From Prolixibacteraceae bacterium (lineage in GTDB: Bacteria; Bacteroidota; Bacteroidia; Bacteroidales; Prolixibacteraceae), in the NCBI GenBank assembly GCA_028282195.1, contig JANQII010000102.1, forward strand, positions 20,799 through 84,798: a stretch of DNA of 64,000 bases, read 5' to 3'. Positions 1,444-64,000 of this stretch are shown here, in pieces (positions within the stretch are counted from its first letter, which is position 1; the number at the start of each line of letters is the position of its first letter). Made by a program: the position numbers and the translations under genes. Below the pieces are notes generated by a model. That model saw only the letters and a list, made by a program, of their open reading frames with translations, did no database searches and had not been told where the DNA came from.

Positions 1444-2862
1444 ATGAACGAGGACGCAAGAGATTTTTACGAAGGTGATGACATAATTGAAGCTGTTGGC
1501 CGTTTTAAGAAAATGATGGCCAGTAAGCAATTTCAATATTTCGATGTATATGAAATTGAAGGAATTGGTGACTTCTTCCTTGATGAAGGAAAAATAAAGA
1601 TGGCTCAGGAAGCTATTGACTTTGGCCTTGAAATGCATGCTTCTGCAATTTCCCTAAAGATTAAAAAAGCCCAAATTTTATTGGTCGATGGTAAAGTCGA
1701 AGAAGCCCTTGAAATAACTCAATTCGTTGAAAAGATTGAAGATACGAACTCTGATGTATACCTGATAAAAGGATCAGCATTAATTCTGCTGGGCAAAGAT
1801 GAAGAAGCAATTGAAGCTTATGAAAAGTCTATTTTCTACAGCTATGAAGAGCAAGATGAATTGCATTATAACATTGGAATTACTTTGGGCCAGGCTGGTT
1901 ATACCCAAAAAGCGATTGAGTTTTTAAGTCGTGCCCACGATCTTAACCCGAAGAACGAACTTGTATTGTACGAGTTAGGCTACTATTTTGATAAAGAGCT
2001 AAAATCTGAAGAAACCATTAACTATTATAACAAGTACCTGGATATTGATCCTTTTAATTCATCGGTTTGGTACAACCTGGGGATTACATACAACCGCACT
2101 GGCGAATATAAAAAAGCAGTTGAAGCGTATGATTATTCAATAGCCCTGAACGATCAGTTTGAGCAGTCATACTTTAACAAGGCTAATGCGCTCACAAACG
2201 ACAATTGTTACGAAGAAGCGATTGAGTGTTACAAAGCGTATTTAGGACTTGACAAAGATAATGATGACGCTTACTGCTATTTAGGCGAGTGTTACATGAA
2301 CCTAAACCGTAACAATGAAGCTTTGATTAGTTATCAAAAAGCAATTCGTTTAAATAAAAATAACGCAAATGCCTGGTACGGTTCTGGTTTAATTATGTGG
2401 ATGGAGGGTCAATTAACCGAAGGACAGACATTCATCAAAAAAGCCATTAAGCTTGATGAAGAGAATGCTGATTTTTGGATGATCTACGGGAAGATAAACG
2501 AGGAACTTGGGTTGTATGAACAAGCTGAATCAGCATTTGAGATGTCAACCATGCTTGAGCCAATAAATTCTGAATGTTGGGTTTATTATGCCGAAATGCA
2601 ATACGACCTGGGCAAACTAAGTAAAGCAATTGATATACTGAAGCAAGCCTGTAAATATATTTCTGACGATTCGGGCATTAATTACAGGCTAACTGCATAT
2701 TTGCTGGAAAACAAGGAAGAAACATCCGCAACCGGTTATTTTGAAAAAGCGCTTAAAGCTGACTTCAACGGCCATAACGATCTATTCAACTACTACCCTG
2801 AGGCCAACCAGAACGAAACAATAAAAAAGCTCATAAAAAAATACCAATCCTCTAAATTATAA
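1444..2862 (+). CDS. Tetratricopeptide repeat protein
   Basis: A 472-residue protein made almost wholly of TPR units, for example VWYNLGITYNRTGEYKKAVE and the similar blocks before and after it, about ten in total. There is no signal peptide and no membrane segment, so it is probably cytoplasmic. The N-terminus is acidic and helical. TPR arrays act as protein-binding scaffolds; nothing in the sequence identifies the partner. It lies between the DUF4301 gene and a phosphosulfolactate synthase gene, all on the same strand, with gaps of 47 and 67 bases. The repeat fold is certain; the role is unknown. Confidence 0.85.
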   Translation: MNEDARDFYEGDDIIEAVGRFKKMMASKQFQYFDVYEIEGIGDFFLDEGKIKMAQEAIDFGLEMHASAISLKIKKAQILLVDGKVEEALEITQFVEKIEDTNSDVYLIKGSALILLGKDEEAIEAYEKSIFYSYEEQDELHYNIGITLGQAGYTQKAIEFLSRAHDLNPKNELVLYELGYYFDKELKSEETINYYNKYLDIDPFNSSVWYNLGITYNRTGEYKKAVEAYDYSIALNDQFEQSYFNKANALTNDNCYEEAIECYKAYLGLDKDNDDAYCYLGECYMNLNRNNEALISYQKAIRLNKNNANAWYGSGLIMWMEGQLTEGQTFIKKAIKLDEENADFWMIYGKINEELGLYEQAESAFEMSTMLEPINSECWVYYAEMQYDLGKLSKAIDILKQACKYISDDSGINYRLTAYLLENKEETSATGYFEKALKADFNGHNDLFNYYPEANQNETIKKLIKKYQSSKL

Positions 2863-2929
2863 ATTGCTGGTCAGGCTACCCCATTGTTAAAATGCTTAAC
2901 TTGCAACTTTTCTACAAACGACTAAAAGA

Positions 2930-3688
2930 ATGAATTTCAATTTACCTTTACTACCTGAACGCCCTGAAAAACCAAGGCAATCTGGTCTTACTATGGTTAT
3001 GGACAAAGGATTAAGCACACGGGAAGCTGAAAACCTTTGTGAAGTAGCATCTTCTTATATTGATATGGTAAAACTTGGTTTTGGCACAGGCCTTATAACA
3101 CCAAACACAAAAGAAAAAATCAAAATATATCAAAGTGCTGGAATCACCCCTTATTTCGGTGGAACCATGTTTGAAGCCTTTATTGCCCGCGACATGTTCG
3201 ATGAGTTCATACAATTTATTAGCGAATGCGGAGTGAACATGGCTGAAGTATCTGATGGCGTACTTCCAATTGAACACAATAAAAAATGTGAATACATTCA
3301 AGGTCTCGCTAAAGATTTTACGGTTCTTTCAGAAGTTGGTACAAAACTAAAAGGAAAGGAAATCAGCAATGAAGAGTGGATTAACTGGATGAAAAAAGAA
3401 CTGGAAGCCGGTGCCTGGAAGGTAATTGCCGAAGCCAGGGAAAGTGGTAATATTGGCATTTACAAAGAAGATGGTTCTGCTAACAGCCAATTGATCCTTG
3501 ATATACGTGAACAAATTGATGTTTCTAAGATATTGTGGGAATCTCCATTAAAAAGCCAGCAGGTGTGGTTTATCAAATTGCTTGGTCCTAACGTGAATCT
3601 TGGAAATATTAATAGCAATGAAGTAATTGCTTTGGAAACACTTCGCCTTGGATTAAGAGGGGACACATTACTCAGTTTTCTTCCTTAA
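2930..3688 (+). CDS. Phosphosulfolactate synthase (ComA-like)
   Basis: 252 residues matching the ComA family, which adds sulfite to phosphoenolpyruvate to give (R)-2-phospho-3-sulfolactate. Family marks include GLTMVMDKGL near the N-terminus, MVKLGFGTGLI, GITPYFGGTMFEAF, EVSDGVLPI and a conserved Lys/Glu-rich barrel core ending in GPNVNLGNI. In archaea this is the first step of coenzyme M synthesis; in Bacteroidota the end product is not settled and may be a sulfonate. The gene sits directly upstream of the sulfite reductase operon, so both draw on the same sulfite pool. ATG at 2930 is a natural start. Family identity is strong; the pathway here is inference. Confidence 0.85.
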   Translation: MNFNLPLLPERPEKPRQSGLTMVMDKGLSTREAENLCEVASSYIDMVKLGFGTGLITPNTKEKIKIYQSAGITPYFGGTMFEAFIARDMFDEFIQFISECGVNMAEVSDGVLPIEHNKKCEYIQGLAKDFTVLSEVGTKLKGKEISNEEWINWMKKELEAGAWKVIAEARESGNIGIYKEDGSANSQLILDIREQIDVSKILWESPLKSQQVWFIKLLGPNVNLGNINSNEVIALETLRLGLRGDTLLSFLP

Positions 3689-3819
3689 TACTAATTTACC
3701 AAAATTTAACACAAGCGAAATAAAATCATAAAGACATCATAATCAGAAACTTGAAACAATTACCAAAAGATAAAACTCAACTCTTATTTAGATTTAATAA
3801 AAATTTACACCGGTTTTCT

Positions 3820-3849
3820 TTTGATTTTTAAATCTTAAGTCTATTTTTG
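3820..3849 (+). promoter_or_regulatory. Promoter of the sulfite/siroheme operon
   Basis: TTTG at 3820-3823 and TATTTTTG at 3842-3849 are separated by 18 bases, a close match to the Bacteroidota sigma-ABfr consensus (TTTG, about 19 bases, TAnnTTTG). Transcription would begin near 3855, leaving about 25 bases before the leader ORF at 3881. Confidence 0.7.
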
Positions 3850-3880
3850 AATCGTATTAAAAGACAAAAAAGTCTCATAA

Positions 3881-3973
3881 ATGAGTAATCACACTTCTGT
3901 AAATAAAATGATGAATGTTGCATGTGCTATGATGTGTATGTGTAGAAATCATTTTGTGCAGAAGGAAGAATGA
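3881..3973 (+). CDS. 30-residue Met/Cys-rich leader peptide
   Basis: An ATG at 3881 opens a 30-codon frame ending with TGA at 3971. Codons 10-21 read MMNVACAMMCMC, giving three Cys codons (3923, 3935, 3941) and five Met codons in twelve, far above chance; RNHF follows. It is too short to be an enzyme and lies between a good promoter and an intrinsic terminator just before sulfur-assimilation genes. The pattern is that of a translated attenuation leader whose ribosome stalls when charged tRNA-Cys (or tRNA-Met) is scarce. RNA segments inside and after it can form mutually exclusive helices (see the attenuator entry). No named family is recalled for this peptide. Confidence 0.75.
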   Translation: MSNHTSVNKMMNVACAMMCMCRNHFVQKEE

Positions 3974-4039
3974 ATATGAACTAATATATTGAATCGATAT
4001 AAACTCAAAAGCCCTTCTGTACCAGCAGAGGGGTTTTTT
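3894..4039 (+). promoter_or_regulatory. Transcription attenuator with four pairing segments
   Basis: Segment 1 (3894-3901) pairs with segment 2 (3957-3964), 8 bp. Segment 2 (3956-3965) pairs with segment 3 (4013-4022), 10 bp including one G-U. Segment 3 (4012-4019) pairs with segment 4 (4026-4033), 8 bp including one G-U, followed by six T. These are the 1:2, 2:3 and 3:4 states of a trp-type attenuator. The Cys codons lie between segments 1 and 2: a ribosome stalled there leaves segment 2 free to form the antiterminator 2:3, while one that reaches the stop at 3971 covers segment 2 and allows the terminator. Pairing was worked out by eye from the sequence; the mechanism is inference from the trp/his/leu paradigm. 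Confidence 0.72.
4012..4039 (+). terminator. Intrinsic terminator of the attenuator
   Basis: CCCTTCTG (4012-4019), loop of six, CAGAGGGG (4026-4033), then T at 4034-4039. Flanking AAAAG can extend the stem against the T run. It stops 13 bases before the first structural gene at 4053, so it can only serve to gate that gene. Confidence 0.8.
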
Positions 4040-4052
4040 ATTGAAAAAAATT

Positions 4053-4949
4053 ATGGTTGAACTTTTAAAAACAAATCGAACTGATTCGCTAAACACCAGG
4101 GAACTGATCCTCCAGAAGTACCTTAAGAGAGAACTCAAAACCGGGGTCTTTCTGCAAACGTGCAACAGAATTGAATGGTACAAGGGAGATGGGGACATTA
4201 CCGAAAATATTGCTCGTCACCTGTTTCGTGTTGTAGCAGGATTAGAGTCTGCTCTAATTGGAGAAACTGCAATTGCCGGACAAGTTAAGCGTGCCTATCG
4301 TCTGGCTCATGAAAACGGAAGGCTAAGCAAGAGCCTTCACAAACTTTTTCAAACATCATTTTTTGTTGCAAAAAAGGTGAAGAGGGAAACAGGCATTTCA
4401 AAAGGTGCAATGTCCCATGGGCAATCAGTTGTACAAATTCTTCAGAATAAAAAAACGAACCTTGCGAACCAAAAGGTCACGCTTATTGGAGCAAACAATC
4501 TTACTGAAAGTATTATCCGGTTTTTAAGGTCTAAGGGGGCAAGCGTTTTCTTTATTGGAAACAGAACTTTTGAAAAGGCATCAACCCTTGCAAGCAAATA
4601 TGACGGTAAAGCTTTCCAATTTCAGGAATTACCAAACATCCTGGAAGAAACGGACATTCTTATCTCTGCCACTTCAGCCCCACACCAGGTATTAAAAAAA
4701 GAGCAGCTTCCTAAAAACAAGCAAATGATACTATTTGATTTAGCTGTTCCCCGGGATATCGACCCAAGGGTTTCTGACCTGGAGAATATGGAACTATTCA
4801 ATATTCAGGAAATTGAACAAGAAATTATTAAAAACCGCAAACTGCGCTCTGAAGAAGTTTTAAAAGCTGAAGCTATTATTGAGTATGAACTGGAACGTTT
4901 CTTTGAAACTTTCGCAAAATCAGTTAACCAACAAAAACTTGCAGTATGA
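4053..4949 (+). CDS. Shortened glutamyl-tRNA reductase paralogue
   Basis: 298 residues from ATG 4053; a TTG at 4041 sits against the terminator T run and is unlikely. It carries the catalytic-cysteine motif TCNRIEWY (Cys near residue 37), GLESALIGE, AGQVKRAY and an NADPH-binding domain with VTLIGANNL. Compared with the 415-residue HemA encoded at 16633-17880 it lacks the N-terminal GLSHKSAPV strand and the whole C-terminal dimerisation domain, ending just after the spinal helix. HemA reduces glutamyl-tRNA to glutamate-1-semialdehyde, the entry to all tetrapyrroles. First gene of the siroheme/sulfite operon behind the attenuator, overlapping the next gene by four bases. Whether it is catalytic alone, or acts with full-length HemA, cannot be told. 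Confidence 0.8.
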   Translation: MVELLKTNRTDSLNTRELILQKYLKRELKTGVFLQTCNRIEWYKGDGDITENIARHLFRVVAGLESALIGETAIAGQVKRAYRLAHENGRLSKSLHKLFQTSFFVAKKVKRETGISKGAMSHGQSVVQILQNKKTNLANQKVTLIGANNLTESIIRFLRSKGASVFFIGNRTFEKASTLASKYDGKAFQFQELPNILEETDILISATSAPHQVLKKEQLPKNKQMILFDLAVPRDIDPRVSDLENMELFNIQEIEQEIIKNRKLRSEEVLKAEAIIEYELERFFETFAKSVNQQKLAV

Positions 4950-5176
4950 AAGAAAAAGCCTACAGGAGCGTAGCTAAAACAGTTTCATGGAGGACACTTG
5001 GAACAATAGACACCATAATAATTGCGTGGTTTGTTGTAGGGAAACTTGAATTTGCAATTACAATTGGTGGCGTAGAGTTACTTACAAAAATGGTTTTGTA
5101 CTACTTTCATGAGCGTACATGGAACAAAATAAAGTTTGGAAAAACAAACGAATCAGATATTGAATATCACATTTAA
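4946..5176 (+). CDS. DUF2061 small membrane protein
   Basis: 76 residues with the DUF2061 pattern: RSVAKTVSWRTLGTIDT, a hydrophobic helix, a second helix beginning GGVELLTKM, and YYFHERTWN. Two membrane segments are predicted by eye. It overlaps the end of the HemA paralogue (ATGA), which implies translational coupling. DUF2061 domains occur beside or fused to sulfate-activation enzymes in other bacteria, so a link with sulfur uptake or sulfite handling at the membrane is plausible but unproven. Confidence 0.85.
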   Translation: MKEKAYRSVAKTVSWRTLGTIDTIIIAWFVVGKLEFAITIGGVELLTKMVLYYFHERTWNKIKFGKTNESDIEYHI

Positions 5177-5177
5177 A

Positions 5178-5645
5178 ATGGAAAAGAACTTTTTACCCAT
5201 AGCAATCAATATTTCCGGCGAAAAGATACTTGTCATCGGCGGAGGCAAATCTGCCTGGAGCAAAATTCAAATCCTGCAACGTTTTGATGCGGAGATTGAA
5301 GTGATTGCGAAAGAAGTTAGTCGGGAGATTAAGGAAAGTGGCATTCAATATAAAGAAAAAGCATACGAAGCTCCAGATTTAAACGGATACCTGATGCTTT
5401 ACTCTTGCACCAATAATCCTGAGTTGGATAAACAAATTGAAAGTGATGGCAGAAAAGCAGGAGTACTAGTCAATATCCATGACAAACCAAGGCTATGCCA
5501 GTTTGTTTCACCGGCCATTTACCAGGATGGTGATATTCGGGTAGCAGTAAGCTCAAATGCAAAAAATGTATTTGCATCCATACAGATTAGAAATGAGATA
5601 CAAGAATTTTTAGAAAACAAAAAAGCTAAAGAGATAGAAAGATGA
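5178..5645 (+). CDS. Precorrin-2 dehydrogenase (siroheme synthase N-terminal domain)
   Basis: 155 residues from ATG 5178; an upstream ATG at 5136 would overlap the previous gene by 41 bases, whereas 5178 follows its stop directly. NAD-binding loop LVIGGGKSAW and the family motif NIHDKPRLCQFVSPA with the conserved Asp, followed by IRVAVSSNAKN. It oxidises precorrin-2 to sirohydrochlorin. It is much shorter than Met8p or CysG-N (over 200 residues) and lacks most of the C-terminal dimerisation helices thought to help chelation, so Fe insertion may need another enzyme. It overlaps cysJ by four bases. Confidence 0.85.
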   Translation: MEKNFLPIAINISGEKILVIGGGKSAWSKIQILQRFDAEIEVIAKEVSREIKESGIQYKEKAYEAPDLNGYLMLYSCTNNPELDKQIESDGRKAGVLVNIHDKPRLCQFVSPAIYQDGDIRVAVSSNAKNVFASIQIRNEIQEFLENKKAKEIER

Positions 5646-7432
5646 GCATCAAATTAAGCCCATTAAATGAGAACCAGCTTAAAGCCCTCGAACAGCTTAG
5701 CGAGGGATTGGAGAAAGAGCAAGCCATTTGGTTGAATGGCTACTTTCAGGGGCTGACCGGAGCAAAACTTAACGGACATGCCCCACAGGCCAGTAATGGA
5801 GAAAGCATACCTACTGCTGTTGAGCAAATACCACTGACCATTCTTTATGGTACACATACAGGCCGTTGCGAAAACTTAGCAAAAAAGCTATGCGAACTGG
5901 CATCAGGAAAAGGCATTGATTGTAAAATTCACCCAATGGATGATTACAAACCCAGGCAGTTGAAAGATGAAAAGAACCTGTTTGTGATTGTAAGCACCCA
6001 TGGTGAAGGCGAACCTCCTGAAATGGCTGAAGAGTTTCACGAATTCATTATGGGAAAAAGGCTTCCAAAACTAAATGGATTGAATTACTCTGTCCTTGCT
6101 TTGGGAGATAAAAGTTATAAACTGTTCTGCCAAACAGGAATTGATATTGACAATGCATTGAAAAAAGCCGGTGCAGCAGAACTGTATCCCATTGTGAAAT
6201 GTGATGTTGATTTTGAAGATAATGCTGAAAGCTGGACAAATGCTGTAATTGATAAACTGGCAAGTACATTACCTGCCCAAACTCAATCATCAGCAAGTTT
6301 AAAGCAGCAAGTTGAAAGCAAAACGTATACAAAAAAGAATCCTTTTAAAGCAACGGTAATTGATAAAACCAGAATAACCGGACGAGATTCCGATAAGGAA
6401 GTATTTCATTTAGAAATATCGCTGGAAGATTCCGGTATAACTTATGAACCAGGTGATTCCTTAGGAATAATCACTGAAAATCCGCCACAGTTGGTAAATC
6501 AGATTATTGAAAAACTGGGAGTTGATAAATCAGAACTGGTTGAAACAAAAGAAGGGCAAGTACCTTTTGAAGAAGCATTGAAGCATCATGTTGAAATAAG
6601 CCTGTTAACACGGGATGTTATTCAAAAATATGCAGACAAAACACAAACAGAAGGTGTTGCAAAGATTCTGGAGGATGATCAGTTACTTGATGAGTATTTG
6701 TATGGTTACGATGTTTTAGACTTGTTAACTGAGTTTCCTTTTGAGTTTACTGCTTCTGCTTTTATTGAATTATTAAGGCCGCTTCCGGCACGTTTATACT
6801 CAATATCGTCAAGTCAGGCAGCCGTAGAAGATGAAGTCCACATTACGGTTTCCAGGGTAAATTACAACAACAAAGGACGGGAACGGGTTGGCGCCTGTTC
6901 AAGCTTTTTAGCAGACCGAATTGAAGTTGATGATGAGTTATTGATTTATATAGACAAGAACCCAAACTTCAGGCTACCACTAAACGGAACACCAATTATT
7001 ATGGTGGGTGCAGGAACCGGAATTGCCCCTTATCGTGCATTCTTACAGGAAAGGGAAACCAACAACCAAAAAGGCAACAGCTGGCTGTTCTTTGGAGATA
7101 GACGGTTTAATTCTGATTTTCTGTATCAGCTTGAATGGCAGAAACTACTAAAAAAAGGTTACCTGGAGAAAATTCATCTTGCCTTCTCCCGTGATCAGGA
7201 TGAAAAGATTTACGTTCAGCACAAACTGAAAGAAAATCAGGAAGAACTTTTCAAATGGATTGAAAAAGGAGCAAACTTTTACCTCTGTGGCGATATGAAA
7301 TACATGGCCAAAGATGTACAGCAAACCTTGCTTGAAATTATTCAGGCACAAGGGGGTTTAACTCCAGAAAAAGCGAAAGAATACTTTAAAAAATTAAAAA
7401 AAGAAAAACGCTTCCAGGCGGATGTGTATTGA
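5642..7432 (+). CDS. cysJ: Sulfite reductase [NADPH] flavoprotein alpha subunit
   Basis: 596 residues, normal length. A short N-terminal extension leads to an FMN-binding flavodoxin domain (ILYGTHTGRCENLA near residue 68, VSTHGEGEPP), an FAD-binding domain (ARLYSISSS, GACSSFLAD) and a ferredoxin-reductase-type NADPH domain (MVGAGTGIAPYRAF, FFGDRR), ending in the typical FQADVY. It passes electrons from NADPH to CysI for the six-electron reduction of sulfite to sulfide. ATG overlaps the precorrin-2 dehydrogenase stop. A 336-base repeat-bearing gap separates it from cysI. Confidence 0.95.
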   Translation: MSIKLSPLNENQLKALEQLSEGLEKEQAIWLNGYFQGLTGAKLNGHAPQASNGESIPTAVEQIPLTILYGTHTGRCENLAKKLCELASGKGIDCKIHPMDDYKPRQLKDEKNLFVIVSTHGEGEPPEMAEEFHEFIMGKRLPKLNGLNYSVLALGDKSYKLFCQTGIDIDNALKKAGAAELYPIVKCDVDFEDNAESWTNAVIDKLASTLPAQTQSSASLKQQVESKTYTKKNPFKATVIDKTRITGRDSDKEVFHLEISLEDSGITYEPGDSLGIITENPPQLVNQIIEKLGVDKSELVETKEGQVPFEEALKHHVEISLLTRDVIQKYADKTQTEGVAKILEDDQLLDEYLYGYDVLDLLTEFPFEFTASAFIELLRPLPARLYSISSSQAAVEDEVHITVSRVNYNNKGRERVGACSSFLADRIEVDDELLIYIDKNPNFRLPLNGTPIIMVGAGTGIAPYRAFLQERETNNQKGNSWLFFGDRRFNSDFLYQLEWQKLLKKGYLEKIHLAFSRDQDEKIYVQHKLKENQEELFKWIEKGANFYLCGDMKYMAKDVQQTLLEIIQAQGGLTPEKAKEYFKKLKKEKRFQADVY

Positions 7433-7768
7433 GTTGCGGGTTGCGGGTTACGGGTTACTGTTATCAAATAACTAATGATCAATAATCAATGACCAATAAC
7501 TAATAACAAATGACTATTTACTAATGACTAAAATGAAACAAGATACTGGATGCCTGATGTTGGATACTTGATAGCCCGTAGGGCTAAAACATTAGTAGCC
7601 CGGGGTAAATGATACCGGGAATTCGGGGGAATGCAATCCCGGGATATAATGATCAGGCCATAAAGGCGCAACTGCATTCATTGCAAATAATAATGGATTT
7701 TCATGCGCCGCAAACAAACAAGTAAAAGGAAGCAATGAGAGATAAAATGATTTTAAATACTGAGAAAA
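7433..7768 (+). other. Intergenic gap in the sulfite operon with dispersed repeats
   Basis: Bases 7433-7512 are low-complexity (tgcgggttacggg then ataactaat / aatcaatgacc words) and match, in inverse orientation, 12890-13011. Bases 7572-7645 hold nested GC hairpins (AGCCCgtaGGGCT, then two CCCGGG-type stems). No terminator with a T run and no ORF are seen. cysI may be reached by read-through or from a weak local promoter that cannot be identified. Confidence 0.6.
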
Positions 7769-9466
7769 ATGAGCAACGAAATAGATTGGACAACTCTTTC
7801 AGAAGTTGAAAAAATAAAATATGACAGCAACTACTTACGTGGAACATTGGTTGAAAGTCTGGCTGATCCGGTTACCGGAGCAATCGCTGATGCGGACACT
7901 CAACTATCAAAATTCCATGGGATTTACCAGCAACACGACAGGGATTTGGAGAAAGAACGCAAACGCCAAAAGCTGGAGCCAGCTTTCTCATTCCTGATCC
8001 GTGTGAGGCTTCCCGGGGGTATTGCTACCTCGCAGCAATGGCTACAGATGGATAAACTTGCAGATGAACGTGCCAACGGAACCCTTAAGCTCACTACCCG
8101 TCAGGCATTTCAACTGCATGGTGTAATTAAAAAGAAACTGAAGCCAACCATTCAAGGCATTAACGATGCATTAATGGATACCATTGCTGCCTGTGGTGAT
8201 GTCAACCGCAATGTAATGTCGCATGCCAATCCTGCTGAATCGGAGCTACACGCTGAGGTTTATCAATTGGCTAAAGACATTTCAGCACATTTAACGCCAC
8301 AAACTTCAGCCTACCACGAAATTTGGCTGGATAAAAAATTAATTGCCAATTCCAAATCGGATGTAGAACCCATTTACGGAGATCGCTATTTGCCTCGCAA
8401 ATTCAAAATGGCTGTGGCTATTCCCCCGTATAACGACACGGATATTTTCTCTCAGGACCTGGGCTTCATTGCCATTGAAGAAAAAGGTAAACTAATTGGC
8501 TACAATGTTAGTGTTGGTGGCGGACTTGGCTCTACATTTGGTGTTCCTGAAACCTACCCTCGCTTAGGGGATGTTATTGGTTTTTGTACTCCTGAACAGG
8601 CTGTTGATGTTGCCGAAAAAGTTGTATTGGTTCAAAAAGACTATGGCGACAGGCAAAACCGCAAACATGCCCGCTTAAAATACACCATTGATGATCGTGG
8701 TCTGGCCTGGTTTAAAGACGAGTTAAACAAATATTTGGGATACAAACTACAACCGGCCAAACCTTACACATTTACACGTAATGGCGACCGGTACGGATGG
8801 AAAAAAGGAACAGACGGCAAATGGAGCCTGAACCTGTTTGTAGAAGGTGGACGGGTAAAAAATACAGATCAACTTCAACTTAAAACAGCTTTAAAAGAAG
8901 TTGCAACGGAAGTGCCTGACGCCCAATTCATTTTAACAGGTAACCAGAACTTAATCATTGGAAATACATCTGAAAAGGCCAAAGTAGCAGCCATTCTGAA
9001 AAAATATAATGTTTGGCCGGTTGGGCTTTCAGGATTGCGGCAAAATTCAATCGCCTGTGTTGCAATGAACACTTGTGCCCTTGCCTTTGCAGAAGCCGAA
9101 CGCTACCTGCCAGATTTAATTACTAAAATTGAATCCATTCTGGAAGAACATCGTTTAATAAAAGAAGAGATTATTATTCGAATGACAGGCTGCCCCAATG
9201 GATGCGGTCGCCCTTACCTTGCCGAAATAGCATTCATCGGCAAATCACCTGGGCATTATAACCTCTATTTAGGCGGAAACTTTAATGGAACCCGTTTGAA
9301 TACATTGTATAAAGAAACGCTCTCTGAAGAAGAAATTCTTAATGAACTACGGCCAATTATTGCCGATTTTGCTGAAAACAGAAATCCAAAAGAAAGATTT
9401 GGGGACTTTGTAATCAGAAAAGGATATGTGAAAGAAATTAAAGAAGGAAAAGAATTTAAACATTGA
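7769..9466 (+). CDS. cysI: Sulfite reductase hemoprotein beta subunit
   Basis: 565 residues. The siroheme/4Fe-4S ligands are in CVAMNTC (C-x5-C) and TGCPNGCGRPY (C-x3-C), exactly the assimilatory CysI pattern. Substrate-binding basic residues fall in the conserved TLKLTTRQAFQLHG block, and a second ferredoxin-like repeat contains LTGNQNLII. With CysJ it reduces sulfite to sulfide using NADPH. The siroheme cofactor is made by flanking genes. hemD follows after three bases. Confidence 0.96.
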   Translation: MSNEIDWTTLSEVEKIKYDSNYLRGTLVESLADPVTGAIADADTQLSKFHGIYQQHDRDLEKERKRQKLEPAFSFLIRVRLPGGIATSQQWLQMDKLADERANGTLKLTTRQAFQLHGVIKKKLKPTIQGINDALMDTIAACGDVNRNVMSHANPAESELHAEVYQLAKDISAHLTPQTSAYHEIWLDKKLIANSKSDVEPIYGDRYLPRKFKMAVAIPPYNDTDIFSQDLGFIAIEEKGKLIGYNVSVGGGLGSTFGVPETYPRLGDVIGFCTPEQAVDVAEKVVLVQKDYGDRQNRKHARLKYTIDDRGLAWFKDELNKYLGYKLQPAKPYTFTRNGDRYGWKKGTDGKWSLNLFVEGGRVKNTDQLQLKTALKEVATEVPDAQFILTGNQNLIIGNTSEKAKVAAILKKYNVWPVGLSGLRQNSIACVAMNTCALAFAEAERYLPDLITKIESILEEHRLIKEEIIIRMTGCPNGCGRPYLAEIAFIGKSPGHYNLYLGGNFNGTRLNTLYKETLSEEEILNELRPIIADFAENRNPKERFGDFVIRKGYVKEIKEGKEFKH

Positions 9467-55030: not shown

Positions 55031-55294
55031 ATGGAAGTAAAAAACATCAAACAAAATCAAAGCTCATTGGATTTTTCAAACACCTTACTTGAAAAGTATC
55101 CGGAATTGTCCCCTACTGAACTTAAGATTTGTTCCTACCTCCGAATGAACCTTTCGAGCAAAACGATTGCGCAAGTAACCAACAGGAGTTTAAGAACAAT
55201 TGAATATACAAGGAACAACATTCGAAAGAAAATGAAGCTCAAACATCAGGAAAACTTAATTAAGCATCTAATTACCATACAAAAAAACCAGTAG
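55031..55294 (+). CDS. Small LuxR-type HTH regulator
   Basis: 87 residues from ATG 55031 (a TTG at 54995 lies within the inverted repeat). The C-terminal two-thirds is a GerE/LuxR helix-turn-helix: LSPTELKICSYLRMNLSSK, then TIAQVTNRSLRTIEYTRNN and IRKKMKL. There is no receiver or ligand domain. It lies upstream of a T9SS protein and the giant repeat protein on the same strand and may control them. Confidence 0.85.
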   Translation: MEVKNIKQNQSSLDFSNTLLEKYPELSPTELKICSYLRMNLSSKTIAQVTNRSLRTIEYTRNNIRKKMKLKHQENLIKHLITIQKNQ

Positions 55295-55530: not shown

Positions 55531-56022
55531 ATGAGAAAAGGTTTTACAATGATGCTAATGATATGCCAATTCTTTTTGGTGCAACATACAAAAGCCCAGC
55601 TGCACTCAGCAATGGGCAGTTCCGGTGGCGAATATGAAGGGAAAGATTATCGCCTTTCGTTCACAATTGGCGAGGCAGCCATTCAAACACTGGAGAGTAC
55701 AAACTACATCCTTACCCAGGGTTTTCAACAACCCCAACTTTGGGTGACATCAATTGATGGGTTTACCGAACTAAAGAACAATATCCAGATATACCCAAAC
55801 CCCGCTATTGAATACCTGGTAATAAGTACCGATAAAGCACTGCCCGGGCAGGCTATCTGCCGGCTTTATGATATGAACGGGCAATTAAAACACAAATCCT
55901 TTCTTGACGGTACAAACACCACCATTGATCTGCAGGGACTCGCCCCTGCCCCTTATTTCATGAAAATCAGTTACAAGGGCAATACCTTGAAAACAACTAA
56001 AATCATTAAGCAAAGTATTTAA
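55531..56022 (+). CDS. Secreted protein with T9SS type A sorting domain
   Basis: 163 residues. Signal peptide (MMLMICQFFLVQHTKA) then a short beta-rich region (GEYEGKDYRLSFTIGEAAIQ), and the C-terminal sorting domain: IQIYPNPAIEYLVI, CRLYDMNGQL, LQGLAPAPYFMKI. The CTD directs export through the type IX system and surface attachment. 116 bases upstream of the giant gene, probably in the same transcript. Confidence 0.88.
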   Translation: MRKGFTMMLMICQFFLVQHTKAQLHSAMGSSGGEYEGKDYRLSFTIGEAAIQTLESTNYILTQGFQQPQLWVTSIDGFTELKNNIQIYPNPAIEYLVISTDKALPGQAICRLYDMNGQLKHKSFLDGTNTTIDLQGLAPAPYFMKISYKGNTLKTTKIIKQSI

Positions 56023-56138
56023 AACGGGCCTGTAAATACAAAACAAGCATGTTACGGGCTTTCTATGGGGAACAGGCTTCTTACAAATTAAGCCTGAACA
56101 AGCAACACGAAAATTCATAAAAATCAATACATCCAAAA

Positions 56139-59100
56139 ATGTTAAAACAAATGAAAAAGCTTCTTTACTTTATGGTAGTCCTGCTGCTGGGCTTAAGTGG
56201 CATGGCACAGGACGGGAACAGGTTCAATTACCAGGCCGTGGTGCGTGATGCATCCGGGGGTATCCTTCCCAACAAGCAAGCAGTGATCGATATTGAGATC
56301 ATCAAAGGGACAGTAAACGAACAAGTAATTTATACTGAACAATGGGACGTGCAGACCACAGCACTCGGGCTGGTCAACCTCGAAATCGGGTCGGGCGACC
56401 CGGAAACCTTTGAGGAAATTAGCTGGGCCAGCGAGCCTTATTTTATATCGGTCACCATTGATGGTGAGTTTATGGGCAAGAGCCAGCTTTTGAGTGTACC
56501 GTTTGCCATGAAAGCCATAAGCTCGGTAAACGACCAGGTAGACGACGCAGATGCCGATCCTCAAAATGAGATCGAACTGCCAACCCAAAGCATTTATGAT
56601 AAGAACAGGGCACTGGTTGCTGATGGCTACGGAAATGTGAAATGGAAAACAATTTCATCATCAGGCAGTGTAAGTGTTGTCAATGACTTAACTACCGGGG
56701 GAACTGATAAAGCCCTTGCAGCCGAACAAGGGAAAACACTGAAGACATTGGTCGATGCAAAACTAAACAAATCCGCTTTGGAGAACAGCCTTTCCGCAGG
56801 AGGTACTGACAAAGCACTAACTGCTGAACAAGGCAAGAAACTATATGAACTGCTCGGCGACAAGGTTGATAAAGTAAATGGCAAAGGGCTTTCAACCAAC
56901 GATTTTACCGATACCGAAAAATACAGGCTGGCCGATGCAGAAATACAGAGCAACAAAAACCAGGCAAATGGTTATGCCGGATTGAACGGCGACAAAAAAA
57001 TAGATGTCTCACAACTGCCTGCCATGACCATCAACAATGTATACCCGGTAAGCAGTCAGGCAGCACAACTGGCTCTTTCTGCCAACCAGGGGGATGTGGC
57101 CATACGCACTGATTTACAGAAAAACTACATTCACAACGGAGGTGTTGCAGGTACCATGGGCGACTGGACCGAACTGGCCTCACCCAACGTGGAAGTGACC
57201 AGTGTAAACGGCAAAACCGGCAACGTAATGGTCGAAATATCCGATATTGGAAACCTGCAGTATGAGCTGCTCACAAAGGCTTCTGCATCGGAAACCTACA
57301 CCAGGACACAAACCGACGGGCTACTGGATACCAAAATCGATAAAGAAAGCGGTAAAAGGCTATCGACCAATGACCTGACCGATGACCTGAAACTCAAACT
57401 GGAAGGGGCAGAAGAAGTGAGCAACAAGAACCAGGCAAACGGTTATGCCGGTCTGGATGCCAATAAAAAGATAGATGCCTCCCAACTTCCGGCAATTACC
57501 ATTAACAATGTATTCCCGGTAGACAGTGAAGCGGCACAACTGGCGCTCTCGGCCAATACCGGTGATATTGCCATACGCAGCGACAATAACAAAAACTACA
57601 TCCATAATGGGGAAACCGCCGGAGACATGACAGACTGGACAGAAATGGCTTCTCCAAATGTAGAAGTAACCAGTGTGAACGCGAAAACAGGGGACGTCGT
57701 AATTGGCATTGCCGATATTGCCACCCTGCAAACTGAACTGGATGCCAAACTGGCCAAAGCCAGCCTGGTAGACGACCTCACTTCGGGTGGTTCGGACAAA
57801 CCTTTAACAGCTGAACAGGGAAAAGAACTGAAAAGCCAGTTGGACGGTAAGGTTGACAAAGAAACCGGCAAAATACTTTCTTCGAACGATTATACCGACG
57901 CCGAAAAAAACAAACTAGCTGGAGCAGAAATACAAAGTAACAAAAACCAGCCAAACGGCTATGTGGGGTTGGATGCTGCCAAAAAAATAGATGTGGCACT
58001 GCTGCCCGATATTACCATTAACAATGTATTCACTGCAACTAGTGAAGCAGAACAATTAGCATTCGTGGTGAAGTTGGGCGACGTGGTCATCCGTAATGAT
58101 ATCAAAAGAAACTACATCCATAACGGGGGCACTTCCGGTACTATGGCTGACTGGGCAGAAATGGCTTCACCGGACATTGATGTGACCAGCGTGAACGGTA
58201 AAATGGGTAATGTGGTGATTGACATTGCCGATATTGCCAGCCTGCAAAGCTCACTTGATGCGAAAGCTGCATCGGCAGATACCTATACAAAAACCGAATC
58301 GGACAATCTTTTGGATGATAAAGTAGATAAAGTAACGGGCAAAGAGCTTTCGGATAATAATTATACCGATACCGAAAAAACAAAACTGGAAGGTACAGAA
58401 GAAAAAAGCAACAAGAACCAGGCTAACGGTTACCCGGGACTAGGTGCTGACGGCAAAATTGATGTGGCACAACTGCCAGCCATGACCATTAACAGTGTGT
58501 TCTCGGTTGCCAGTCAAGCTGAACAACTGGCCCTTAGCGCTACCACAGGTGACATAGCTATACGTAGCGATAACAATAAAAACTATATCCACAATGGGGG
58601 GTCGGCAGGCGATATGACCGACTGGACAGAAATGGCATCGCCCAGTGTGGACGTAACCAGTGTGAACTCCAAAACAGGGGCAGTAGTAATTGGCATTTCG
58701 GATATCGCAACCCTTCAGGGCGAGCTGGATGCGAAAGTGGCCAAAACCGACCTGGTGGATGACCTGACAACAGGAGGTACAAACAAAGCCCTGACCGCCG
58801 AGCAGGGAAAAGCACTAAAAACATTGATTGATGCAAAAGCGGCAACTACCGACCTGGCACCAATAGCCACATCGGGCAGTTTTAACGACCTGGTTGATTT
58901 ACCGACAAACCTGGATACGGATTCTTCGGATGATTTTGACGGCTCATTCAACAACCTGACCGATGTTCCTGCTAATCTGGACGTGGACGGTACAGATGAC
59001 CTCACTACAGCTGACCTGGTCAATAACCTGTCTTCGGGTGGTACCGGCAAAGCCCTGACCGCCGAACAGGGGAAAGTGTTGAATACCCTGCTTAGCGGGA

Positions 59101-62100
59101 AAGTGGATCAGGAAACAGGGAAAGGGCTTTCTGAAAACGATTTTACAACAGCCGATAAACTCAAACTGGACGGGGCGGAACAAGTGAGTAACAAAAATGT
59201 TCCAAATGGTTACGCGGGACTGGATTCAAACAAGAAAATTGATGCTTCACAACTGCCTGCCATCACCATTAACAGTGTTTACTCGGCAGCAGATGAAGCT
59301 GAACAGCTTGCCCTTTCGGCCAACCAGGGGGATGTGGCCATACGGACCGATGAAAACAAAAACTACATTCACAACGGCGGAAATACCGGAACCATTGCGG
59401 ACTGGACAGAAATGGCATCACCCAATGTGGACGTGCTCACTGTAAACGGCAAAACCGGTAACGTGACCATAGACATTGCCGATATTGCAAACCTGCAAAG
59501 CTCACTCGATGAAAAAGCAGCATCGGCAGATACCTATACAAAATCAGAATCGGACAATCTCCTGGATGATAAAGTAGATAAAGTAAGCGGCAAAGAACTT
59601 TCGGATAATAATTATACCGATGCCGAAAAAACAAAACTGGCAGGTGCAGAAATACAAAGCAATAAAAACCAGGCCAATGGTTACCCCGGACTGGGTGCTG
59701 ATGGTAAAATTGATGTGGCACAACTGCCAGCTATTACCACCAACAGCGTGTACCCGGTTAGCAACGAAACCGAACAACTGGCCCTTTCTGCCCACACAGG
59801 GGATATTGCCATACGCAGCGACATTAATAAAAACTACATCCACAACGGGGGAACTGCCGGTGACATGACCGACTGGACAGAAATGGCTTCGCCAGACGGG
59901 GCCGTGACCAGCGTGAATACCAAAACAGGAGATGTAGTTATTGGCATTTCTGACATTGCCACCCTGCAAGGCGAACTGGACGGTAAGCTAACCAGCTCGG
60001 ACATCATTGACAATATCACTTCAGACAACACCGACAAAGCACTGTCTGCCAAACAGGGTAAAGAACTCAAAGCCCTGATTGATGCGAAAGTAACGACAGC
60101 CGACCTGGCCGATATTGCCACTTCGGGAAGTTACAATGACCTGACCGATTTACCGGCAAACCTGGATACGGATGCCTCGGATGATTTTGATGGTTCATTT
60201 AACAGCCTGACCGATGTCCCTGCCAACCTGGACACCGATGCCAGTGATGACCTAAGCACAGGCGATATTATCAATAATTTAACTGCTGGCGGTACAGCCA
60301 AAGCACTGTCTGCCGAGCAGGGAAAAATACTGAAAGGACTGCTGGACGATAAAGTGGACAAAGAAGCAGGAAAAGGACTTTCAGATAATAATTATACCGA
60401 TGCCGAAAAAACAAAACTGGCCGGGGCAGAAGAAAAAAGCAACAAAGACCAGGCTAACGGGTACGCCGGGCTGGATGCAAACAGCAAGATTGATGCAGCA
60501 CAATTGCCGGAAATGGCTATTGACAATGTATTCACTGTCCCTGACGAAGCGGCACAAACATCCCTTACGGCTGAAAAAGGGGACATGGCCATTCGTACCG
60601 ATGAAAGCAAAAACTACGTCCATAACGGGGGCAGTTCGGGCACCATGGCCGACTGGACAGAACTGCTAGCGCCGGCAGCGGCAGTAACGGCAGTGAATAG
60701 TAAAACAGGCAACGTGGTTATTGGCATTGCCGATATTGCAAGCCTGCAAAGTGAACTGGATGCCAGGGCAACATTATCTGAAACCTATACAATAACAGAA
60801 AGCGATAACCTGTTGGATGATAAAGTCGATAAAGTAAGCGGCAAAGGGCTTTCTGAAAATGATTTTACCAATGCCGAAAAAACCAAACTGGCAGGGGCAG
60901 AAGAAAAAAGTAACAAGAACCAGGCAAACGGTTACCCGGGACTGGGTGCAGACGGGAAAATCGATGCGGCACAACTGCCTGCCATTACCACCAACAATGT
61001 GTATTCCGTAAGTAGTGAAGCAGAACAACTGGCCCTTTCCGCCAACTCGGGGGACATAGCCATACGCAGCGATATAAACAAAAACTTTATCCACAACGGG
61101 GGAACGGCCGGTGACATAACGGACTGGACAGAAATGGCCTCGCCTGACGGTGCCGTGACCAGCGTGAACACCAAAACCGGCGATGTGGTCATCGGGATTG
61201 CAGACATAGCCAGCCTGCAAAGCGAACTGGATGACAAGCTGCCGAAAGCCAACCTGGTGAATGACCTGACCACAGGCGGTACAAGCAGTGCCCTTACAGC
61301 CGAACAGGGGAAAGAACTGAAAACACTGCTGGATGACAAAGCAGACCTGGACTCCCCAACGTTCACGGGCACACCTTCACTGCCAACCGGGGCAACCGCT
61401 GTGACCCAAACCGTTGGTGACAACTCCACCAAACTGGCAACAACGGCTTTTGTGAGTGCCATGGCAGCGGCAAGCAATGTACCCATTGGCGACGGGGCAG
61501 GGAAAATGCTTTACTGGGACAATGTGAACACCAAATGGGACCAAACGGATTTTATAAAAATGATGACCACTTCCAACACGGCCATTAACATTAACAACAG
61601 TTCGTACCCCTATGCCAAACTAAATGTAAATGCGGCAAGTTATGCTGCACCGGCTACGTCCGGGACAACACAAGCCGGGGGTGCCATAAGGATAGGATCT
61701 CCGTCTTCAGCTGTTGTTATGGATATTGGAACCCATGGGGGAATTGGAGGTACCTGGATACAATCAACAACCGGTGCCAACCTGGCTTCAAATTACCCGC
61801 TAAGCCTGAACCCTAACGGCGGGGAGGTTCGTATTGGCTCAGGGGGTTTAAAAAGTGGTGGATCCATTACCCCTGCCGTCAGCAGTAGTTATAGTTTGGG
61901 CAGTTCAAGCAACAGATGGTATGACTTGAGTCTAAGCAGGGCTATTCAAGCAACCAACAACTTTTACATACATGATGGGAACAGAAACAGAATTCAACTT
62001 GGTACTAGCAGCACGGCATTGTTTTCGCCTGATGGGAGTAACTCCATGATAGTGGGTAATACTTACAGTCAATCGTCAAAAAGTTTCTTACCAACCGCAA

Positions 62101-63020
62101 ATAATTCTATGGATTTAGGGAATAGTTCCTACAAATGGAGAAACCTGTACCTGCAAAGTGACCTGCACCTGGCTGATGACATCATGGCTTCAACAAACTT
62201 TACAATTTATGATGGAACAAGAAATCGTTATGTGCAAGAAAGCAATGCTTTAACATTGTATTCCGGTAACGCAGGGAGTTATTTGCAGGTAACTAACAGT
62301 AGTGTAATTTTGGGCGCTAATAGCAATAATGGCTATTTGCAATTGAATGCTGGTGAGATGGTGATAAGAGGTACCATCAGGTCTATTATTAATAATGCGT
62401 ATGACCTAGGTACAAATTCCTATAAATGGCGTGACCTGTACCTAGGAGATGATATCATGGCTACAAAAGCTTTTTCAATTCATGATGGAACCAGGGATCG
62501 GATACAGACAAATACCGCTTATACAGTACTCTTCTCACCCGGTGGAAACAACTTATCTGTTGGGAATGGTTATACGTATTCAGGTAATCATTTTTGCCCC
62601 GCTTCTACTTCTTCTTATGACCTGGGAATAAGTACTCATAGGTGGAAAACTATTTATGCAACAAACGGAACAATAAACACTTCGGACCGGAGCTTAAAAA
62701 AGAATATCAAAGACCTTCCGGCAGGGCTAATAAAAGCTATTTCGAAACTACGCCCGGTAGAGTACGAATGGAAAGAAAATGAAAACGGCAAACACATTGG
62801 TTTTATTGCCCAGGAAGTAGAGGCAGTTTTTGCAGGCAGTGGGCTTAATCCCAAAGAATATTTTGCCATTCAGCAACCCGATGAAGAAAGCGAGTATTAC
62901 TCGCTGGTATACAGCGAATTTGTAGCTGCCATTTTAGGCTATACCCAACAGGTCGAAAAACGGGTTGAAACCCTTGAAGCTGAACTGGAAGCTATTAAAG
63001 CTCACTTAGGCATAAAATAA
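56139..63020 (+). CDS. Giant secreted tail-fibre-like repeat protein with S74 chaperone domain
   Basis: 2293 residues. Signal peptide (LLYFMVVLLLGLSGMA) and an N-terminal beta domain (FNYQAVVRDASGGIL ... SVPFAMKAIS) common to Bacteroidota surface proteins. Residues about 180-1760 hold eight copies of a unit with KNQANGYAGL, QLPAITINNV, GDIAIRSD, NYIHNGG, DWTEMASP, VTSVNGKTGDVVI, plus eight linkers of DKALTAEQGK type. These resemble phage tail fibres, as does SPTFTGTPSLPTGA. A beta-helix region (YDLGTNSYKWRDLYL repeats) leads to the S74 intramolecular chaperone beginning at Ser2182 (SDRSLKKNI). Probable trimeric fibre. Base composition of the repeat region looks more GC-rich than that of its neighbours. 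Confidence 0.9.
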   Translation: MLKQMKKLLYFMVVLLLGLSGMAQDGNRFNYQAVVRDASGGILPNKQAVIDIEIIKGTVNEQVIYTEQWDVQTTALGLVNLEIGSGDPETFEEISWASEPYFISVTIDGEFMGKSQLLSVPFAMKAISSVNDQVDDADADPQNEIELPTQSIYDKNRALVADGYGNVKWKTISSSGSVSVVNDLTTGGTDKALAAEQGKTLKTLVDAKLNKSALENSLSAGGTDKALTAEQGKKLYELLGDKVDKVNGKGLSTNDFTDTEKYRLADAEIQSNKNQANGYAGLNGDKKIDVSQLPAMTINNVYPVSSQAAQLALSANQGDVAIRTDLQKNYIHNGGVAGTMGDWTELASPNVEVTSVNGKTGNVMVEISDIGNLQYELLTKASASETYTRTQTDGLLDTKIDKESGKRLSTNDLTDDLKLKLEGAEEVSNKNQANGYAGLDANKKIDASQLPAITINNVFPVDSEAAQLALSANTGDIAIRSDNNKNYIHNGETAGDMTDWTEMASPNVEVTSVNAKTGDVVIGIADIATLQTELDAKLAKASLVDDLTSGGSDKPLTAEQGKELKSQLDGKVDKETGKILSSNDYTDAEKNKLAGAEIQSNKNQPNGYVGLDAAKKIDVALLPDITINNVFTATSEAEQLAFVVKLGDVVIRNDIKRNYIHNGGTSGTMADWAEMASPDIDVTSVNGKMGNVVIDIADIASLQSSLDAKAASADTYTKTESDNLLDDKVDKVTGKELSDNNYTDTEKTKLEGTEEKSNKNQANGYPGLGADGKIDVAQLPAMTINSVFSVASQAEQLALSATTGDIAIRSDNNKNYIHNGGSAGDMTDWTEMASPSVDVTSVNSKTGAVVIGISDIATLQGELDAKVAKTDLVDDLTTGGTNKALTAEQGKALKTLIDAKAATTDLAPIATSGSFNDLVDLPTNLDTDSSDDFDGSFNNLTDVPANLDVDGTDDLTTADLVNNLSSGGTGKALTAEQGKVLNTLLSGKVDQETGKGLSENDFTTADKLKLDGAEQVSNKNVPNGYAGLDSNKKIDASQLPAITINSVYSAADEAEQLALSANQGDVAIRTDENKNYIHNGGNTGTIADWTEMASPNVDVLTVNGKTGNVTIDIADIANLQSSLDEKAASADTYTKSESDNLLDDKVDKVSGKELSDNNYTDAEKTKLAGAEIQSNKNQANGYPGLGADGKIDVAQLPAITTNSVYPVSNETEQLALSAHTGDIAIRSDINKNYIHNGGTAGDMTDWTEMASPDGAVTSVNTKTGDVVIGISDIATLQGELDGKLTSSDIIDNITSDNTDKALSAKQGKELKALIDAKVTTADLADIATSGSYNDLTDLPANLDTDASDDFDGSFNSLTDVPANLDTDASDDLSTGDIINNLTAGGTAKALSAEQGKILKGLLDDKVDKEAGKGLSDNNYTDAEKTKLAGAEEKSNKDQANGYAGLDANSKIDAAQLPEMAIDNVFTVPDEAAQTSLTAEKGDMAIRTDESKNYVHNGGSSGTMADWTELLAPAAAVTAVNSKTGNVVIGIADIASLQSELDARATLSETYTITESDNLLDDKVDKVSGKGLSENDFTNAEKTKLAGAEEKSNKNQANGYPGLGADGKIDAAQLPAITTNNVYSVSSEAEQLALSANSGDIAIRSDINKNFIHNGGTAGDITDWTEMASPDGAVTSVNTKTGDVVIGIADIASLQSELDDKLPKANLVNDLTTGGTSSALTAEQGKELKTLLDDKADLDSPTFTGTPSLPTGATAVTQTVGDNSTKLATTAFVSAMAAASNVPIGDGAGKMLYWDNVNTKWDQTDFIKMMTTSNTAININNSSYPYAKLNVNAASYAAPATSGTTQAGGAIRIGSPSSAVVMDIGTHGGIGGTWIQSTTGANLASNYPLSLNPNGGEVRIGSGGLKSGGSITPAVSSSYSLGSSSNRWYDLSLSRAIQATNNFYIHDGNRNRIQLGTSSTALFSPDGSNSMIVGNTYSQSSKSFLPTANNSMDLGNSSYKWRNLYLQSDLHLADDIMASTNFTIYDGTRNRYVQESNALTLYSGNAGSYLQVTNSSVILGANSNNGYLQLNAGEMVIRGTIRSIINNAYDLGTNSYKWRDLYLGDDIMATKAFSIHDGTRDRIQTNTAYTVLFSPGGNNLSVGNGYTYSGNHFCPASTSSYDLGISTHRWKTIYATNGTINTSDRSLKKNIKDLPAGLIKAISKLRPVEYEWKENENGKHIGFIAQEVEAVFAGSGLNPKEYFAIQQPDEESEYYSLVYSEFVAAILGYTQQVEKRVETLEAELEAIKAHLGIK
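57123..61140 (+). repeat. Eight in-frame coding repeats of about 470-780 bp
   Basis: The unit marked by the codons for NYIHNGG starts near 57123, 57595, 58111, 58581, 59361, 59831, 60611 and 61081. Spacing is about 470, 515, 470, 780, 470, 780 and 470 bases; the long ones contain an extra LTDVPANLDTDASDD block. The alternation suggests duplication of larger two-unit blocks. Confidence 0.85.
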
Positions 63021-63059
63021 AAGCGTGCTGCGATAGTTTATCGCATGGATGTATTTAAC

Positions 63060-63185
63060 ATTTACTGATCGGATGACTTCGAGTCATCCGATCAGTATCT
63101 TCAAAGCAACCGTCACACATTCCCAAACCACGTCATCCTGTCCCCCAAAGAAACCCGTCATGCTCTCCCCAACGACGTCATCCTG
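63060..63185 (+). repeat. 126-bp direct repeat, copy 1, with 15-bp palindrome
   Basis: Contains ACTGATCGGATGACT-TCG-AGTCATCCGATCAGT (63064-63096), a perfect 15-bp inverted repeat, then cgtcatcctg words. Copy 2 lies at 63736-63862 and differs at only a few bases. Confidence 0.85.
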
Positions 63186-63311
63186 TTCCCCAACGACGTC
63201 ATCCTGAACTTGATTCAGGATCTCCGTCGGACAAGGAAGGCGCAACCAGAAACAGATTCCGAATCAAGTTCGGAATGACTGTAGGCAGGAGTTCGGAATG
63301 ACTGTGTCAAC

Positions 63312-63342
63312 TCCTCTTAGCGGTTTAAAACCGCTAAGAGGA
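63312..63342. repeat. 31-base perfect palindrome
   Basis: TCCTCTTAGCGGTTT and AAACCGCTAAGAGGA flank a single central A. It lies 41 bases before the small gene at 63383. No T run, so it is not an ordinary terminator. The span 63186-63311 holds CGTCATCCTG and TTCGGAATGACTG repeat words and no ORF. Confidence 0.75.
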
Positions 63343-63382
63343 TAACAACCAACTTAAGCGAAAGAAATAACAAATTGTAAAA

Positions 63383-63637
63383 ATGAACCAAAAAGAAATT
63401 AAAAACATTACCATCCAGTTGTTTAAGCTGGAATACAATAAACCCCAGCCAAGGAAAGACGCCCCTGAGTTGAGTGTGGATGTTTTTATTTTAGATAAGG
63501 ACGGTCTGCATGGATTGGCCTTCTTTTCTTTTAAAGAGGAAAAGTGGTACGTTCATACAGATACTTTTGTGGGCTATATGAAGTGCCCCATTGAAGCAAA
63601 CTGGATGTGGTACTACCCCCCGGTAAATTCATGGTAA
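63383..63637 (+). CDS. Small protein of unknown function
   Basis: 84 residues, acidic/basic mixed, with Trp/Tyr-rich C-terminus (NWMWYYPPVNSW). No signal peptide or membrane helix, and no family recognised. It lies between two copies of a 126-bp repeat, so the segment may be mobile or recently duplicated. Start ATG 63383 is plausible. Confidence 0.55.
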   Translation: MNQKEIKNITIQLFKLEYNKPQPRKDAPELSVDVFILDKDGLHGLAFFSFKEEKWYVHTDTFVGYMKCPIEANWMWYYPPVNSW

Positions 63638-63735
63638 GCTTTATTCCTTTCGCTGGCGCAAATTTGTAATTTGTGCCAACTATTTCTTGCTTTTACAAAG
63701 CAAAACATGGATAACATATCCGCACTAGCCTCGGG

Positions 63736-63862
63736 ATTTACTGATCGGATGACTTCGAGTCATCCGATCAGTATCTTCAAAGCAACCGTCACACATTCCC
63801 CAAACCACGTCATCCTCTCCCCCAAAGAAACCCGTCATCCTCTCCCCAACGACGTCATCCTG
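63736..63862 (+). repeat. 126-bp direct repeat, copy 2
   Basis: Same 15-bp palindrome at 63740-63772 and the same following sequence as copy 1. The remaining bases to 64000 show no gene; an ORF covering the repeat is not credible. Confidence 0.85.
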
Positions 63863-64000
63863 AGACCCAAAAATTTTCATTTAGTAATGTGGGATGACGT
63901 AAGGTTGGTGTTACCTTTGAGGTTTTGACTACACAGTGTGACCGAACATCAGTATAGTGCTTCGAGCCTGTTCCTGAGCATGGTCCCAAAAGAATGAGCA

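Follow-up and report, generated by a model that had tools for sequence, protein, structure and literature searches.

The 64,000-nucleotide stretch of Prolixibacteraceae DNA analysed here (the window) contains two adjacent genes on the forward strand, a small partner gene and, 116 bases further on, a large fibre gene. The fibre gene is the second member of a conserved pair, with the partner gene directly upstream. The features of the locus, in window positions, are as follows.

55031..55294, + strand: stand-alone LuxR-type HTH ORF, 87 aa, upstream of the pair (Pfam GerE, 3e-7)
55531..56022, + strand: partner protein, 163 aa, with a signal peptide, a short conserved N-domain and a T9SS type A sorting domain
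55600..55746, + strand: partner N-domain, residues 24-72 (...SFTIGEAAIQT...LTQGFQQP), unnamed in Pfam and NCBIfam
55789..56007, + strand: partner T9SS type A C-terminal sorting domain, residues 87-159 (Por_Secre_tail; AlphaFold pLDDT 90-98)
56139..63020, + strand: fibre ORF, 2293 aa, a single uninterrupted frame, MAT-like, without a T9SS sorting domain
56139..56207, + strand: fibre signal peptide, residues 1-23, by inspection, without a lipobox Cys
56208..56528, + strand: fibre N-terminal domain (NTD), residues 24-130, a conserved beta-sandwich distantly related to Bdello_MAT_N
56856..57281, + strand: fibre unit 1, residues 240-381
57327..57752, + strand: fibre unit 2, residues 397-538
57843..58268, + strand: fibre unit 3, residues 569-710
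58314..58739, + strand: fibre unit 4, residues 726-867
59094..59519, + strand: fibre unit 5, residues 986-1127
59565..59990, + strand: fibre unit 6, residues 1143-1284
60345..60770, + strand: fibre unit 7, residues 1403-1544
60816..61241, + strand: fibre unit 8, residues 1560-1701
61296..62681, + strand: distal stalk and tip, about residues 1720-2181, an endosialidase/T5-type triple-beta-helix
62682..63017, + strand: S74 self-cleaving chaperone and C-terminal coil, residues 2182-2293, with a predicted cut before Ser2182

The fibre contains modules of phage type. Pfam finds Phage_fiber_rpt (E 4e-38), PTR (E 5e-9), an endosialidase tail spike over residues 2142-2181 (E 4e-4) and Peptidase_S74 from residue 2182 (E 2e-15; 57.2 bits against a curated cut-off of 22). 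PHROG matches, to tail and unknown phage families, reach 1e-121 and place the units and tail of the protein in phage tail/fibre families, and residues 2149-2244 match the phage T5 L-shaped tail fibre 4uw8. The original prediction of a 2293-residue reading frame with eight tail-fibre-like units and an S74 domain from Ser2182 is borne out by these matches. In the distal stalk, an 'LG.SS..RW..LY'-like motif, read by eye, recurs four times. The S74 catalytic motif SDxxxK reads S2182-D-R-S-L-K2187 (SDRSLK) and is kept in all 23 S74 domains detected among related fibres. SDxxxK and the preceding triple-beta-helix motif are shared with phage S74 proteins such as the K1F endosialidase and the T5 L-shaped tail fibre (4UW8); unlike these, the window's S74 domain lies on a chromosomally encoded, predicted exported protein whose N-terminal domain is bacterial, and not on a virion. 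Cutting at the S74 serine has been demonstrated experimentally for Bd3182 (PMC10769870). Homology gives good support to the view that the fibre would trimerise on its S74 domain and then cleave itself.

By inspection, the signal peptide of the fibre reads MLKQMKKLLYFMVVLLLGLSGMA followed by Q and stands directly before the NTD, and all 64 fibres have a hydrophobic stretch ahead of this domain. A linker joins the NTD (24-130) to the fibre units, which begin at residue 240. A T9SS sorting domain is absent from all 64 complete fibres scanned, the window's own included. The expectation of an exported protein with a bacterial signal peptide and N-terminal domain agrees with what inspection and a distant match to the MAT N-domain indicate. 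Judged by sequence, it is well supported that the gene encodes a bacterial, probably exported protein in which phage-fibre modules are reused and a predicted self-cleaving chaperone forms the C-terminal end. This part of the original prediction stands, and its proposal of ongoing duplication does not.

The latter had been drawn from the repeat periods. The eight units of about 142 aa span residues 240-1701, with start-to-start spacings of 471, 516, 471, 780, 471, 780 and 471 bases in order. DNA identity among the units is 65-83%, and 32-69% of the comparable fourfold sites carry differences. Because the copies are so diverged, the array must be old, and we reject recent repeat duplication in this gene. 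Length change does occur in the family, since two Maribellus relatives (L027 and L028) with closely similar ends differ in the copy number (14 and 16) of a 69-aa shaft unit, which is coiled-coil-like and unrelated to the phage-type units of the window. GC content is 46-47% over window positions 56001-64000, the region of the fibre gene, versus 34-41% outside this region, and the rise could come either from acquired modules or from the codon composition of the repeats. At 63068-63310 and 63740-63870, 3' of the fibre gene, the intergenic DNA carries repeated palindromic TGATCGGATGACTTCGAGTCATCCGATCA and CGTCATCCTG-type short repeats.

What is the N-terminal domain of the fibre? Whole-chain scans left it unnamed in Pfam and gave no NCBIfam match to MAT at 0.001 on the 2293-aa chain. 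With the isolated domain as query, the NTD matched NCBIfam NF053851 (Bdello_MAT_N) at E 2.5e-6 and 27.4 bits, under the curated cut-off of 60 and over about half of the model. Bdello_MAT_N was matched by 73 of 76 sequences comprising the window's NTD and its homologues. Run against the whole genome, the model hit exactly five places, each a fibre gene of MAT-like type, and it had no match in 14 control genomes. MAT-like fibre genes number six in total in this genome. The AlphaFold model of the NTD is a beta-sandwich with a pLDDT of 89-97 over most of the core, and comparison of the fold with the PDB returned nothing with E <0.001 or TM >0.5; the MAT N-domain likewise has no clear PDB counterpart (PMC10769870). 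Matches to phage beta-sandwich domains were weak (TM about 0.5) and were not used. Given a match that is significant but lies below the family threshold, we regard the NTD as distantly related to the Bdellovibrio MAT N-domain.

Among the 198 Bacteroidota genomes sampled, about a third (62 genomes) carry a MAT-like NTD. The closest relatives of the window's fibre come from Maribellus, Sunxiuqinia and Prolixibacteraceae. Tip and shaft domains across 64 fibres are S74 (24), YadA_head (8), FISUMP (7), collagen (5), Lcl_C (3) and Collar (2). At three loci (L057, L052 and L033), three to four MAT-like fibre genes stand in tandem, and the array at L033 begins with a single small gene for a T9SS partner. 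Homologous fibres elsewhere resemble the YadA and Lcl/Scl adhesins in using a YadA head or collagen repeats as shaft; they differ from them in the MAT-like NTD and the T9SS partner, and no YadA-type membrane anchor occurs among the matched families.

The MAT fibres of Bdellovibrio bacteriovorus have been shown by experiment to be displayed on the surface, and their trimeric tips have been crystallised (Caulton et al. 2024, PMC10769870). The window's fibre shares with the MAT superfamily a signal peptide, a conserved beta-rich N-domain of similar size, a mosaic shaft with phage-type modules, a tip formed by S74 (SDxxxK) or other adhesive domains, and the presence of several paralogues per genome. 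It differs in that its N-domain scores below the family cut-off, its host belongs to the Bacteroidota, its length is 2293 aa versus about 1000, and it is paired with a gene for a T9SS-addressed partner. The main text of the MAT paper makes no mention of Bacteroidota (PMC10769870).

Both the MAT kinship and the T9SS-addressed partner were missed by the first reading of this DNA, and nothing else at the locus is as informative as the partner. TIGR04183 scores 47.5 bits on it against a cut-off of 23, and Por_Secre_tail is present in 46 of 46 adjacent partner homologues. The partner model resembles solved T9SS C-terminal domains (8glk_D, TMt 0.83; 8qb1_A, TMt 0.75), and its N-domain is predicted alone with low confidence (pLDDT about 46-55 over residues 41-80). 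By its sorting domain, the partner is classed as a T9SS cargo. Such partners are like other T9SS substrates in carrying a standard domain, type A in the window and type B at three further loci (L160, L162 and L164). The difference is that the window's sorting domain is carried by a small protein of its own, beside a large fibre that lacks one.

The machinery for such cargo is encoded in the same genome. Type A cargo is recognised by PorV/SprA through the sorting domain (PMC10994853). The genome contains an SprA translocon gene (2767 bits) and a PorV gene, the latter on another contig (C301), where a different fibre gene lies about 4.5 kb upstream of it. Positions 2184-7784 of that locus (L019), 3' of the S74 fibre, also hold genes for an 800-aa ZirU/SinI-family-like protein and a thioredoxin-like protein, together with a degenerate small partner-like ORF (6022-6501). 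SprA is present in all 62 genomes with the NTD, and the NTD in none of 44 SprA-negative genomes; nearly all of the latter listed belong to one family, and this confounding make-up leaves the association weak.

Pairing of partner and fibre genes recurs well beyond the window. Four further fibre genes of the same genome have a partner-type gene just 5'. Among 83 related fibre genes at 70 loci, a partner gene lies directly upstream of 45 and directly downstream of one, and the upstream partners mostly lie about 60 bases or less from the start of the fibre domain match. A second sample, of Bacteroidota genomes, has a partner gene upstream of 42 of 65 MAT-like genes. Many MAT-like genes, above all the weaker matches, have no recognisable partner alongside. 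Searched against the 198 Bacteroidota genomes, the partner N-domain alone, stripped of the sorting domain, gave 42 matches. All except one lie within 3 kb of a MAT-like gene on the same strand (36 upstream and 5 downstream), where about 0.0005 per match would be expected by chance; the model used (A7) was trained on proteins chosen for adjacency, and distant non-adjacent relatives could escape it. The exception (L159) adjoins YadA-head fibre frames that look broken.

At L160, L162 and L164, the partner N-domain is joined to a type B sorting domain in place of type A, and three-gene clusters run from a MAT-like fibre (collagen or other) through the type B partner to a PorP/SprF gene. PorP/SprF is a carrier family that serves type B T9SS cargo (PMC12618676). 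Because partners occur on either side of the fibre gene and with either type of domain, the link between N-domain and fibre persists while gene order and sorting class vary. Partner and NTD distances correlate (r 0.54, exceeding all 1000 permutations), as expected for any linked pair, and such co-inheritance and neighbourhood do not prove contact. We found no description of this gene pair among open-licence papers.

How might the two proteins work together? We propose, with a probability of roughly 0.6, that the pair makes a self-processing trimeric adhesive fibre that is carried to the surface, held there, or both, by its T9SS-exported partner. Sec would export both proteins. Three fibre chains would wind into a long fibre by means of the phage-type units, and the S74 domain would nucleate the trimer and then detach by cutting before Ser2182, so that the tip is left as a bare beta-helix. 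The T9SS (PorV/SprA) would recognise the C-terminal domain of the partner and deliver it to the outer face of the outer membrane, and the short N-domain of the partner would bind the conserved NTD, so that the fibre is carried out and/or held on the surface. Shaft and tip are exchanged freely from one member to another, whereas both partner domains persist, as a repertoire of adhesins would require. We infer binding and towing from the genomic linkage. The boldest form of this proposal is a two-partner T9SS, in which the short protein gives the sorting signal in trans, tows the fibre through SprA and anchors it via the MAT-type NTD; we offer this form tentatively, at clearly less than even odds.

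The main alternative is that the partner serves solely as a surface anchor or receptor, and that the fibre passes through the outer membrane by a different route, as the MATs of Bdellovibrio have to, and then docks on the partner delivered by the T9SS. Bdellovibrio displays its MATs, whose surface element was left unidentified (PMC10769870), and the MAT-like genes that have no adjacent T9SS protein also fit an anchor. Against this, the window encodes no other outer-membrane export route next to the pair, and the lineages with a partner followed by a PorP/SprF carrier have nothing else for export of the fibre. On balance, we consider the anchor-only role rather unlikely, at odds below those of our main proposal.

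The partner could also have nothing to do with holding the fibre, for example as a separate, co-regulated small surface protein whose linkage reflects co-expression. Adjacency alone cannot show contact, and the intergenic gap in the window is compatible with this view. However, the near confinement of the partner N-domain to the vicinity of MAT-like genes, and an association that outlasts reversed gene order and a swapped class of sorting domain, make mere co-expression improbable. The LuxR-type HTH ORF upstream of the pair is possibly a regulator, and it probably does not belong to the conserved parts of the system. We rejected it as a conserved third component, as a similar HTH occurs near only two other searched loci; at L025, a TPR-LuxR-type protein precedes a paralogous pair.

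A fibre that has no role at the surface, either because it stays in the periplasm or because it is released into the medium once S74 has cut, would accord with the lack of a T9SS signal, lipobox or outer-membrane anchor on the fibre itself. The conserved T9SS partner and the surface display of Bdellovibrio MATs built to the same plan (PMC10769870) speak against this, and we regard such a fate as very unlikely. One feature of Bdellovibrio, however, counts against our main proposal. To our knowledge, it has no T9SS. Since it displays MAT fibres all the same, a T9SS is not a general requirement for fibres of this sort.

Finally, could the gene belong to a phage or a phage-derived device? The fibre unit is partly covered in Arthrobacter and Aeromonas phages and mostly covered in one viral contig (L158), and S74 proteins and LuxR-type regulators are found in loci of extracellular contractile injection systems (eCIS; PMC8213781). 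The neighbouring genes of the window encode citrate synthase, acetyl-CoA hydrolase/transferase, carboxyltransferase, biotin carrier, the oxaloacetate decarboxylase beta subunit and similar proteins, and PHROGs finds no structural phage gene among them. The original prediction that no phage genes surround the fibre therefore held up. It had named a prophage remnant as the outcome that would count against it, and none was seen as far as neighbours, sheath and tRNA-Arg were tested: a contractile sheath gene was not found in the genome, and the 3' end of the nearby tRNA-Arg has no duplicate. We accordingly reject a prophage remnant, and also an eCIS or tailocin fibre, given the missing sheath gene and the signal peptide; with five further genes in this genome for fibres built alike, and a spread over about a third of the sampled Bacteroidota genomes, a phage or injection-system origin retains almost no weight. 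The fibre modules are a common property of phages and cells, and the gene itself is cellular.

Why would a Bacteroidota fibre of this kind matter? A predatory bacterium recognises its prey with MAT fibres, and the way in which the constant N-domain of these fibres is held at the surface was left unexplained (PMC10769870). The window locus and its relatives extend the MAT fibre plan to about a third of sampled Bacteroidota, and offer in the neighbouring gene a specific, testable candidate for the surface element in this phylum. If the partner does act in trans through the T9SS, it would itself be the surface element that MAT-like fibres have lacked, as far as Bacteroidota are concerned. It would also define a new class of T9SS cargo, and a route by which a large multimeric protein with no T9SS signal of its own could use the T9SS.
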